A stretch of DNA of 64,000 nt from Planctomycetaceae bacterium (GTDB taxonomy: Bacteria > Planctomycetota > Planctomycetia > Planctomycetales > Planctomycetaceae). The notes beneath the pieces were generated by a model. That model was not told the origin of the DNA. It did not search any database and saw only the letters and a program-made list of their open reading frames with translations. Both the position numbers and the translations under genes were made by a program. This document shows, piece by piece, positions 59,538 to 64,000 of this stretch (within the stretch, counting starts at the first letter, position 1; every line of letters starts with the position of its first letter). The DNA lies in contig PBSL01000019.1 of the NCBI GenBank assembly GCA_002726205.1, forward strand, positions 1 through 64,000, given 5' to 3'.

Positions 59538-60899
59538 TCAGTCGAGCGAGGCGGCGGTCGCCCGCAGCACGTCCGTGGCATCCGAGCCGGTCTGCAGCTG
59601 GTCATGGTCGGGCGGGGCGTAGGTTGCCACCGGATCGAAGTGACGACCCTCGACGGCCATCGCGATCAGGTCCTCGGCCGAGAGGGTCATGCGACCGGCA
59701 CGGCGGGTCAGGTTGAAACGGATGTCGCCGATCCCTTCAAACGACCGGTACACCACTTCGGTGCAGACCAGTCGATCGGAACGGGTGAAGTCAAAATCGA
59801 AGTCGTAGGGCTTGCCCGTGTGAGACATTCCACGGACCAGTCCAGCGAGCACCTGTGACTGGTCGAGCCGGGGTCTGAGGATGGTGATCGCGTCGCTGTG
59901 CAGGGGCGACTGGAACGAACGAATCCAGACCCCGTCCTTCTTGGCCTCCTGCACGCGGCACGGTTCATCGGGATCGCATGACAACAGCCGGTCCCAGTGA
60001 CGACCGGCCTGTTCGCTGCGGTCGAAACCCAGTTCGGCAAGCTCGTCACAACTTCCCAGGTACAGCGCGGCGTGGGGCCAGAACCCGGGCAGGAAATAGT
60101 TCGTGACCGCGTGTTCCTTGCGGACGATGATCACGTCGCCGGGACGAATCAGCGTCCGCAGTTCTGAGACGATGGATTCCGGCAAGCCGGGATCGTGGCC
60201 GGGCACCAGGTAGAGATCGGCAACGGCACTCGAGACCGACTTCTGCAACCCGTAGAGGGCTCGGTGCAGCAGGTCGCCGCGCAACCTCGATACCAGTTGC
60301 CGGGCTCGCACCCGGGTACTCTGCACCGCATACTCGCCCAGCGACACGTGAGCCGACGTCTGCAGCTGTTCGATGATTCCGGGCAGGACCGCCAGCGGCG
60401 AACCTTCAACCATCGCCTGCAGGTCAGTTCGGTTCTCGTCGAAGTAGCTGGCGGCATGGTAGAGGTGCCAGGCGTGCACGGGATTCGCCAGCGAGGCCTG
60501 GACCCGGTCGTAGACGCCTTTGGGAATCCCGAAGGCCGGCGCTGGTTCGTTGAGTTTCTCGCGAACGACGGGCCGGTCATCGAATTCCCGGCGGAGGAAC
60601 CGGGCCGCGTCGGCCAGGACCAGGGCACCGGCATAACCGACCAGGAAGGCGTCTTCGCGTTCCTGGGTGTCCTTCATTTCCAGTACGACCTCGAGCAGCG
60701 CGTTGCGGCTCTGCCAGTACGAGATCAGCAGGTGCCGTGTCTCCTCGTCCTCGCTCGGCGTGAAATATCCCCGGTCGCTCGACCGTGCCACGTCCGAGAG
60801 GACCTGGGCTGACTGCTTGAGCCGCTGGAAATGCTCGTGGACGGCAAACACCGTCCGAGCCCCTTCGACGGCGATGCTGCTGAGGGAGTCACCGGGCAT
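59538..60899 (-). CDS. YiiX/YebB-like NlpC/P60 cysteine hydrolase
   Basis: The protein has 453 residues. The C-terminal half contains the permuted papain-like fold: PGDVIIVRKEHAVTNYF with GFWPHAALYLG (His276) and LVCTEVVYRSFEG (Cys379), in the reversed order His then Cys typical of this group. About 230 residues before it are helical and have no recognised family. No signal peptide is seen, which is unusual for an enzyme expected to cut cell wall or lipids. It follows the amidohydrolase gene by 12 nt. Likely substrates are amides or acyl groups; this is open. Confidence 0.88.
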   Translation of the reverse strand: MPGDSLSSIAVEGARTVFAVHEHFQRLKQSAQVLSDVARSSDRGYFTPSEDEETRHLLISYWQSRNALLEVVLEMKDTQEREDAFLVGYAGALVLADAARFLRREFDDRPVVREKLNEPAPAFGIPKGVYDRVQASLANPVHAWHLYHAASYFDENRTDLQAMVEGSPLAVLPGIIEQLQTSAHVSLGEYAVQSTRVRARQLVSRLRGDLLHRALYGLQKSVSSAVADLYLVPGHDPGLPESIVSELRTLIRPGDVIIVRKEHAVTNYFLPGFWPHAALYLGSCDELAELGFDRSEQAGRHWDRLLSCDPDEPCRVQEAKKDGVWIRSFQSPLHSDAITILRPRLDQSQVLAGLVRGMSHTGKPYDFDFDFTRSDRLVCTEVVYRSFEGIGDIRFNLTRRAGRMTLSAEDLIAMAVEGRHFDPVATYAPPDHDQLQTGSDATDVLRATAASLD

Positions 60900-60911: not shown

Positions 60912-61919
60912 TCATCCGTCCCAGGGAGCGGCCATCCTAGCACAGACCGCAGCCGCCTCGACCGTCTCGACCGATGAATCCGGTTCCAGCCACTGCAGCC
61001 CCCGGGTTGCGTAATCCGGTCCCAGGTCGAAGGAGCGCTTGATCGCCAGGTCGACATCCAGCGGATTGCCGCTGCCGGCGGCCGAGAAGCCGATGCGGTG
61101 GAGATAAGGGATGCGGGCAGGCGGAAACGGGAAATCGCTGCCGTGCAACAGTCGCCGCCTGAGCGATTCGGGTTCGGCCGCCAGTCGTGCCAACGCGCGT
61201 CGCCGCGGCCAGGTGGCCAGGATCGACGTGTCACCGTACAGGTTCTCGTAGGCATGCATCATCTCGACAAACCCCGGATAGTAATCCTCGCGGTCAAAAA
61301 ACGCGCACGTTCCACAGTGGGCCGCGATGACTCTCAACCCGTGTTCCAGCGGACGGGCCAGGCGACGGGGATCGGTGAAGGCCTGCGAGATCACCTGGCA
61401 GGAGTGTTCGTAGCCGGTATGAAACATCAGCGTGACGTCGAGTTGGGCGGCGAGTCGATAGAACGCGTCGAACCGGGGCAGCGACGGATCGACTCCCTGG
61501 ATCGCCGTGTGCACCTTGACCAGCCGGCCACCGGCCAGGGCACATCGCTCGAGTTCCTCCAGCGCGTCTTCCCGGACCGGGTTGATCGAGCATCCCGGCA
61601 GGATCTTCTCGTGGCGACCGGCCAGTTCGAGCACGTAGTCGTTGGAGACGTAAAAGTGGGTTCTCGAGAGGTCCGGCTGACCGTCATCGCGGTAAACAGC
61701 GTCCTGGGCCAGGACCACGGCGCGTTGCAGTCGCGATTCGTCCAACTGGCGGATGAGCCGGTTGCGGATCTGCTCGCTTCGTGTCTCTCCCGGTTCGCGG
61801 TTCAAGCCAGTCAGCCTGACGATCAGCCGCGTCAACCAGCGACGGCGGGTCTGTTCGGACAGGAATCCCTGTTCGGGGTTCTCTCCCCAGCAGAAAACGT
61901 GCGTGTGAATATCCAGCAT
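60912..61919 (-). CDS. Amidohydrolase-family metal-dependent hydrolase
   Basis: The protein has 335 residues and starts with MLDIHTHVF, giving the metal-binding HxH at the end of strand 1. Others are VKVHTAIQG, MFHTGYEH, VIAAHCGTCAFF and LLHGSDFPFPP (the conserved Asp), matching the amidohydrolase_2 family. It has no signal peptide. It lies between the selenoprotein gene and the cysteine hydrolase gene on one transcript. The usual reactions are hydrolysis or decarboxylation of small organic acids; no substrate can be set. Confidence 0.9.
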   Translation of the reverse strand: MLDIHTHVFCWGENPEQGFLSEQTRRRWLTRLIVRLTGLNREPGETRSEQIRNRLIRQLDESRLQRAVVLAQDAVYRDDGQPDLSRTHFYVSNDYVLELAGRHEKILPGCSINPVREDALEELERCALAGGRLVKVHTAIQGVDPSLPRFDAFYRLAAQLDVTLMFHTGYEHSCQVISQAFTDPRRLARPLEHGLRVIAAHCGTCAFFDREDYYPGFVEMMHAYENLYGDTSILATWPRRRALARLAAEPESLRRRLLHGSDFPFPPARIPYLHRIGFSAAGSGNPLDVDLAIKRSFDLGPDYATRGLQWLEPDSSVETVEAAAVCARMAAPWDG

Positions 61920-61986: not shown

Positions 61987-62520
61987 TCACGCGCGAACCA
62001 TCTCCAGAATCGATTCGACAGGGGGTCGATCCACGGGGGTCCTGGTCACGTGGTGAAACCGTGTGATGCCGTCGGGGTCGATCAGCACGTCACCGCCGAG
62101 CTGGTAGACGTCACCGGCGGGTGGCCGCAACCGTCGCCCCTTGAAGATCAACTTCAGGAATCCCCACCACGACGCCGGACCCCAGATCGCCCAGTACCCT
62201 CCACGGGGAAGGGCATGGGTCGTGTAGAGTGTCCGCTGGGTATCGACCAGCAGCGGCCACGGCCAGCCAGTCTCCTCGACGTAGGCCCGCGCCGGCTCGG
62301 GTGGCTGAAACGTTACCGCCAGCACATCCAACTCCAGGCGGTTGATTTCCTCGGCCGACTGCTGCAACTGCAGCAGGTGTTCCCGTCAGGGCAGTCACGT
62401 CAGGTGCCGGTGAAACACCAGCAGCAGCCAGCGGCCGTTGCGGTCCTCGAGCCTGTGTTCCTTCCCGGTCGTGTCACGCAGCGTCGACATCACAGACTCC
62501 GATCGGATTGTCGTCGACAT
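61987..62520 (-). CDS. SelL-like peroxiredoxin-fold selenoprotein with U-L-P-U redox motif
   Basis: The product has 177 residues if two in-frame UGA codons (62395-62397 and 62386-62388) are read as selenocysteine, Sec42 and Sec45. They lie exactly where AhpC-TSA_2 proteins have FLRHFGCxFCRE: here FHRHLTULPURE. The rest fits the same family (LDVLAVTFQPPEPARAYVEE, WPLLVDTQRTLY, DVYQLGGDVLIDPDG, RTPVDRPPVESIL). The ATG at 62520 overlaps the symporter stop as TGATG; an alternative ATG is at 62490. A stem-loop fitting a bacterial SECIS follows (62359-62376). It probably forms a diselenide bond and works as a thioredoxin-like reductant or peroxidase. A standard annotation would split or call it a pseudogene. 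Confidence 0.85.
62359..62376 (-). promoter_or_regulatory. Candidate bacterial SECIS element
   Basis: On the minus strand, CTGCTGC, loop AGTT and GCAGCAG form a perfect 7-bp stem with a 4-nt loop whose second base is G. The loop begins 16 nt after the second UGA and 25 nt after the first. These distances fit the known bacterial range (about 16-37 nt) and the loop rule of a G in its first two bases. One element could serve both UGA codons. It lies inside the coding region, as bacterial SECIS elements do. Confidence 0.75.
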
Positions 62521-64000
62521 CACCAGAGGACGACGAGGTTCAGGTAGGCCAGAATGCCCAACACGATGGTGGCCCACAACCAGGGCTGTTTTCTCAGTGG
62601 CAACCGGGTCCGGGCATCATCGAACGGATGCCTCGGCAGTTCGATCAACTCGCGGCGTGTTTTCTCGAGCCAATTGCCCTCGTCGGCTTGACGCTCGGAG
62701 CGCATTTCTCCCGACGCTTCGATCTCGCCGACCGGCACCGGTCCCTCACCGGCGGTCGCGGGCAACCAGACGACCAGTCCCTGCAGTTCCTCTCGCCGGG
62801 CCCGTCCCAGCACGAGTGTTGTCAGCAGCACGCCCAGTGCGGTTGCGCCGATGCTCCAGAGAAACCCGTACCATTTGTTGGACCACCAGACGGGGAACGC
62901 ATGGTCGGACATCTCGCAGAGAAACCTTGCCAGCCCGCAACTGCAGCCAAACGCCAGGCCGACCAGACCGCTCTTGCGATGTGCGGGCGTGAAGATGCCG
63001 GCCAGGTACACCGTCATCAACGGCAGCACGGTGACGCTGATCATCTCGAGATAGAACTTCACCATCCCGATTTTCAGGAAGGGAACGTAGGCGAACGAGG
63101 CGCCGATCACGACGAAGGTGGTGATGCGGGAGACCCGGAGGTAGTGGTAGTCGTTGGCATTGCGGACGAGGAACCTCGCGTAGAGGTCGCGGGTGAAGAC
63201 GACCGAGAGGGACGAACCGATCGAGTCGAAGGTCGAGATGCCTCCGGCCAGCAATCCGGCGACAACGATCCCGGCCAACCCCCCGCCCAGCGGGACCAGG
63301 TGTTCGGAAATCAGGATCGGGAAAATGTCGTCGGCCCGTTCGGCCGGCAGGTTGGGCCGCACCCCCCGTCCGAGGATTCCCAGCGTGACGTTGAACCACA
63401 TCACGCCGGCGGTCACCGCGGCGGCGACGACCGCGGCCATCTTCACGTCCCACTCGCTGCGTGCGGCCAGCATTCTCATCGACTGGCTGTGATTGACGAC
63501 GCAGTAGGCCGTCAGCGTGATGATCCAGCCGACGATCACCAGCCAGGCCGGGACGCCTTCTTCGAGGTGTTTTCCCACGTGCGTCATGGCCCCGCGGACC
63601 CGCTCGCTCACGTTTGCCTCGACCATTGTCTTTTCCATCCCGGCAAATCCGCCGACGGCCTGGTAGACGACGACCCACATCACCACCGCGGCAGCCAGCA
63701 TCACGACCGACTGGATCGAATCGGTCAGCACCACCGATTTCAGGCCTCCCATCGCCGTGTAGGCCGCCGCCCCGGCGGCGATCGCCACCACGAGGTACCA
63801 CGTGGCGTCACCCCAGCCGGTCAGCAGGCTGAACGTCAGGTACAGCGAATAGGCCACGTTGCCCAGGACGTTGGTGCGGTAAAGTACCTGCACGATCACG
63901 GCGATCACACGGGCCCCCGGATCAAATCGCCGTTCCAGGTATTCGGCGTTGGTGAACATCCCGCTGCGGTACATTGGCAGGAAGACGGCCCAGGCGACCA
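62520..64000 (-). CDS. Sodium:solute symporter (SSS family), 5' end outside window
   Basis: The frame is open from the stop at 62520-62522 to the right edge, so the N-terminus is missing. The visible part has about ten transmembrane segments. SSS signs: SGMFTNAEYLERRF (the segment after helix 2), YTAMGGLKSVVLTDSIQ and GIVVAGLLAGGISTFDSIGSSLSVVFTRDLY. A long charged loop near the end (GEIEASGEMRSERQ) lies before the last helix. Substrates in this family include sugars, amino acids, nucleosides and vitamins; none can be set. It is coupled by a 1-nt overlap (TGATG) to the selenoprotein gene, so both may be co-expressed. Confidence 0.92.
   Translation of the reverse strand, partial: VAWAVFLPMYRSGMFTNAEYLERRFDPGARVIAVIVQVLYRTNVLGNVAYSLYLTFSLLTGWGDATWYLVVAIAAGAAAYTAMGGLKSVVLTDSIQSVVMLAAAVVMWVVVYQAVGGFAGMEKTMVEANVSERVRGAMTHVGKHLEEGVPAWLVIVGWIITLTAYCVVNHSQSMRMLAARSEWDVKMAAVVAAAVTAGVMWFNVTLGILGRGVRPNLPAERADDIFPILISEHLVPLGGGLAGIVVAGLLAGGISTFDSIGSSLSVVFTRDLYARFLVRNANDYHYLRVSRITTFVVIGASFAYVPFLKIGMVKFYLEMISVTVLPLMTVYLAGIFTPAHRKSGLVGLAFGCSCGLARFLCEMSDHAFPVWWSNKWYGFLWSIGATALGVLLTTLVLGRARREELQGLVVWLPATAGEGPVPVGEIEASGEMRSERQADEGNWLEKTRRELIELPRHPFDDARTRLPLRKQPWLWATIVLGILAYLNLVVLW

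Follow-up and report, generated by a model that had tools for sequence, protein, structure and literature searches.

The locus and its reading frame

The window, which is the whole 64,000-nt stretch of planctomycete DNA analysed here, carries close to its end a four-gene minus-strand cluster. One of these genes can be read as encoding a single redox protein related to SelL, whose CxxC motif has UGA in place of each Cys codon, and for 62520-61987 of the minus strand this reading of the sequence holds. The features are as follows.

62520..63974, minus: upstream gene of the sodium:solute symporter family (SSF); the frame continues past the window end and the true start may be outside
61987..62520, minus: SelL-related selenoprotein gene (NF040769), predicted UxxU, 167-177 amino acids
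62395..62397, minus: UGA1, predicted selenocysteine (Sec) at the first CxxC position; UGA also in 102 other distinct homologues
62386..62388, minus: UGA2, predicted Sec at the second CxxC position; TGC or TGT in the rest of the clade
62358..62376, minus: bSECIS-like hairpin CUGCUGC-AGUU-GCAGCAG with an adjoining base; 7 bp, tetraloop at 62369-62366
60912..61919, minus: downstream amidohydrolase (Amidohydro_2); order the same in relatives
59538..60899, minus: next downstream gene, a YaeF/YiiX-like permuted papain-like amidase (Peptidase_C92); order the same in relatives

The two UGAs are nine nucleotides apart, start to start, in the context FHRHLT-U-LP-U-REHL. When both are counted as residues, the frame runs without a break from ATG 62520 (or ATG 62490) to a TGA stop at 61989-61987. 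The upstream start candidate overlaps the stop codon of the symporter gene (TGATG), and ATG 62490 is favoured by alignment with relatives. Both UGAs fall in the aligned CxxC columns of an AhpC/TSA-type protein, and frame, alignment and Pfam matches agree in this with the initial annotation. The expectation that standard annotation would miss or split the gene was right in one respect only: without recoding, a plain ORF call under table 11 gives two pieces of 60 and 126 amino acids, but an existing NCBI family model recognises the protein.

Two relatives have the same order of symporter, SelL-related gene, amidohydrolase and C92 amidase, and so does a third as far as its contig reaches.

Family, fold and redox role

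The protein scores 171.8 bits (9.9e-51) against the NCBIfam model NF040769, 'SelL-related redox protein', whose curated cut-off is 120 bits, in keeping with the proposal that it belongs, as a planctomycete representative, to the SelL-related family. Its Pfam matches are AhpC-TSA and AhpC-TSA_2. An AlphaFold model built on eight aligned sequences (mean pLDDT 79) predicts a thioredoxin-like fold, in which U32-x-x-U35 (numbered from ATG 62490) comes just behind a core strand, where the first long helix begins. The helix N-terminus is the site of the CxxC in ResA and of the peroxidatic cysteine in Bcp/PrxQ. Bcp/PrxQ and ResA folds head the Foldseek list obtained with the predicted model as query, and sequence profiles retrieve the same PDB relatives. 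A role as a redox enzyme is likely because of the predicted thioredoxin-like fold together with the active-site motif.

Selenocysteine machinery of the host

Lack of the decoding machinery, which the initial annotation had named as grounds for abandoning a selenoprotein, was looked for in the genome from which the window comes, and the Sec-decoding set proved complete: a tRNA-Sec with anticodon UCA, selB and selA adjoining each other on another contig, and a Sec-containing selD. The host selD (L015, C13:116990-117913) is itself a selenoprotein gene, with an in-frame UGA at SCAGU that is followed by a bSECIS-like 6-bp hairpin with its loop, AGGUC, 31 nt on.

A hairpin downstream of both UGAs

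The bSECIS model (PMC13188914) describes a loop of 3-9 nt with a G in its first two bases, a stem of 4-16 bp, a UGA-to-loop distance of 16-37 nt and a minimum free energy of at most -7.5 kcal/mol. The hairpin CUGCUGC-AGUU-GCAGCAG fits this description for both UGAs, with its AGUU loop, 7-bp stem and folding energy of -11.7 kcal/mol, the apical loop starting 25 nt past UGA1 and 16 nt past UGA2; the latter spacing is the shortest that the range allows. The initial annotation gave the same two distances, correctly as far as the apical loop is concerned, but assigned them to the beginning of the stem-loop, whereas the stem starts 18 nt past UGA1 and 9 nt past UGA2.

By itself the hairpin is weak evidence, because an equally good fold arises in 19% of synonymous recodings; the 81-nt fold around it is likewise uninformative (z -0.29). 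Comparison with relatives is more telling. Within the 14-member clade containing the gene, the stem is paired in 91.8% of cells, and the covariation score is 0.479 as against 0.188 for shuffled alignments, a value reached by none of 500 shuffles; controls slid along the alignment collapse. One stem pair, 25-36, is seen as CG, AU, GC, UA and UG. In the wider family the SECIS rule is satisfied by 74 of 103 Sec homologues as against 5 of 45 Cys homologues (Fisher p = 3e-12, with homologues counted as independent despite their relatedness). Taken across relatives, these alignments provide strong comparative evidence that the hairpin is not an accident of codon choice.

A Cys homologue with a hairpin was also seen: L077, a CxxC gene, has a perfect 13-bp hairpin, TCGAACTTCGAGA-TGACT-TCTCGAAGTTCGA, with its loop 35 nt after the first Cys codon, despite having no in-frame UGA in its motif.

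Descent of the second UGA

Searches of planctomycete genomes and further fetched stretches were reduced to 148 distinct homologous sequences. Their motifs are UxxC in 99, CxxC in 43, UxxA in two, and UxxS, CxxA, CxxS and UxxU in one each, the sole UxxU being the gene in the window. The column of UGA1 holds UGA in 103 of the 148 and a Cys codon in all the others. UGA2, on the other hand, has no conservation of its own, since no other sampled homologue has UGA there; further UxxU members were found neither among the 148 planctomycete homologues nor in viral contigs nor in plasmids.

In the tree, two UxxC genes, L095 and L072, form the sister pair of the gene (support 99), and the other 13 rows of the enclosing 14-row clade are likewise all UxxC (SH-aLRT 97). 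The nearest relatives, at 67-74% identity and with gene order kept, are UxxC too. Because the gene sits inside a well-supported clade that is otherwise UxxC only, the second Sec would be a recent gain by one base: the ancestor was probably UxxC, and UxxU probably arose on the gene's own branch by TGC/TGT -> TGA. The initial annotation took the UxxU motif as a mark of SelL descent, and this is not supported by the comparison, which makes the second Sec local and derived. An inherited SelL with ancestral UxxU, whose relatives have lost the second Sec, would account for the identity of the motif with that of published SelL and for the name that NCBI gives the family. However, with both the sister pair and the surrounding clade UxxC throughout, it would require several separate reversions, and it is very improbable.

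In three Sec homologues the second Cys is missing: L181 and L192 (both UxxA) and L183 (UxxS). Judging from these sequences, the second motif residue may therefore be dispensable in some lineages.

Integrity of the gene and status of UGA2

Decay of the frame outside the UGA positions in close relatives, another sign that had been proposed as telling against a functional gene, was looked for in the nearest genus. There a seemingly truncated homologue in relative G430 was rejected as an instance, the match stopping at a contig edge. In the gene itself there is no frameshift and no sign of decay; compared with the nearest relative, the stretches on either side of the UGAs both have a dN/dS of about 0.2. 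In relative-rate tests with true outgroups, the branch is no faster than its UxxC sister (6:10, 9:9 and 9:9); L088 was rejected as an outgroup for these tests since it is sister to L087. The divergence of the gene from its relatives (67-74% identity) is similar to that of its neighbours (64-78%), in which no frame damage was found.

The assembly is a draft in 76 contigs and one wrong base at UGA2 is possible for that reason, in which case the real gene would be an ordinary UxxC member. TGT -> TGA or TGC -> TGA is a single-base change, the motif is unique in the family sample, and the closest record found is from another species. An assembly or sequencing error is nevertheless unlikely: there are 55 single-base nonsense routes in the gene and just one falls on the second-position Cys codon, and neither the gene nor its neighbours bear other frame damage. 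Slightly less likely again is a very recent nonsense mutation, with UGA1 decoded, translation stopping at UGA2 and the gene newly dead. Such an event would be confined to this genome, as UGA2 is, and dN/dS is blind to so recent a loss. Against it, Cys to Sec is the chemically mildest change and has fallen on the sole codon at which Sec makes functional sense; moreover, UGA2 is within SECIS range and the frame downstream of it is intact.

The favoured reading is thus a predicted UxxU oxidoreductase derived from a UxxC form, its two UGAs decoded by way of one hairpin, to which as a whole a probability of about 0.78 is given. The product would belong to the SelL-related family, as a peroxiredoxin-like oxidoreductase with a thioredoxin fold and Sec-x-x-Sec as its active site. 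Both codons would be decoded by SelB with Sec-tRNA, brought in by the one downstream hairpin: UGA1 first, at 25 nt from the loop, and UGA2 three codons later, at 16 nt. Once oxidised, the protein probably has its two Sec residues joined as a diselenide. The one-base change in a UxxC ancestor would have added the second Sec, which may have been tolerated because the pre-existing SECIS is within the permitted range of that codon as well.

Hairpin spacing and the proposed gain of a second Sec

Two main hairpin layouts occur in the family, with the loop at 21 nt (38 genes) or at 25 nt (19 genes) after UGA1. Triloops (GGU or GGC, for example) prevail in the 21-nt layout, AGUU in the 25-nt layout. 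This can be seen by setting L019, L020 and L054 (AGUU tetraloop, 25 nt) against L049-L053 (mostly a GGU/GGC triloop, 21 nt). From the second Cys codon to the loop the distance is 12 nt in the former layout, which is below the published limit, and 16 nt in the latter. A working UxxU would be reached by one base only in the 25-nt layout, because only there are 16 nt or more left between the second Cys codon and the loop; over all Sec genes with a qualifying hairpin, the second position is at least 16 nt away in 23 of 74.

It is conceivable, though we lean somewhat against it, that the distance of the SECIS determines which lineages are able to acquire a second Sec, and that the gene in the window is this step caught early, in a bacterium, while its one-Sec sisters persist. 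Such a spacing gate rests on one example, and one example cannot prove gating.

Relation to known UxxU proteins

SelL (Shchedrina et al. 2007, PNAS 104:13919), according to the passages on it in PMC2397514, PMC3316567 and PMC3541580, is a Prx-like protein in which UxxU replaces CxxC, with one SECIS for the two Sec residues and a demonstrated diselenide; the same passages name fish, invertebrates and marine bacteria as its sources. Proteins with UxxU and a single SECIS have thus been known since 2007, and the kind is not new. A bacterial Prx-like thiol:disulfide oxidoreductase (PF00578) is also catalogued with UxxC/UxxU motifs (PMC9312934, PMC13188914); the gene described here shares its Pfam domain and the family shows both motif states, the catalogue entry covering a broad domain. 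Planctomycete selenoproteins are already known (PMC4807772), and a word search of the reviews PMC9312934 and PMC13188914 gave no mention of planctomycetes.

As far as SelL is described in those passages, the planctomycete protein resembles it in having a predicted UxxU at the CxxC site and a predicted thioredoxin-like fold; its one hairpin is placed so that it may serve both UGAs. It differs in that its UxxU appears to be derived within a UxxC clade, the comparison being with the description of SelL rather than with its sequence; derivation from UxxC within Planctomycetota speaks against an inherited motif. With the UxxC members of NF040769 in Planctomycetota it shares a score above the family cut-off, the first UGA, the position of the hairpin and, in the nearest relatives, gene order; the difference is the second position, Cys there and UGA here.

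What is new is a planctomycete UxxU case whose origin from UxxC is clear. To the known systems it would add a direction, the change of UxxC into UxxU by one base on a single branch that already had the hairpin. It also provides a natural pair, UxxU and UxxC, about 74% identical and in the same gene order, with which two questions may be put: can SelB be reloaded by a bacterial SECIS in the space of three codons, and what advantage does a diselenide have over a selenenylsulfide?
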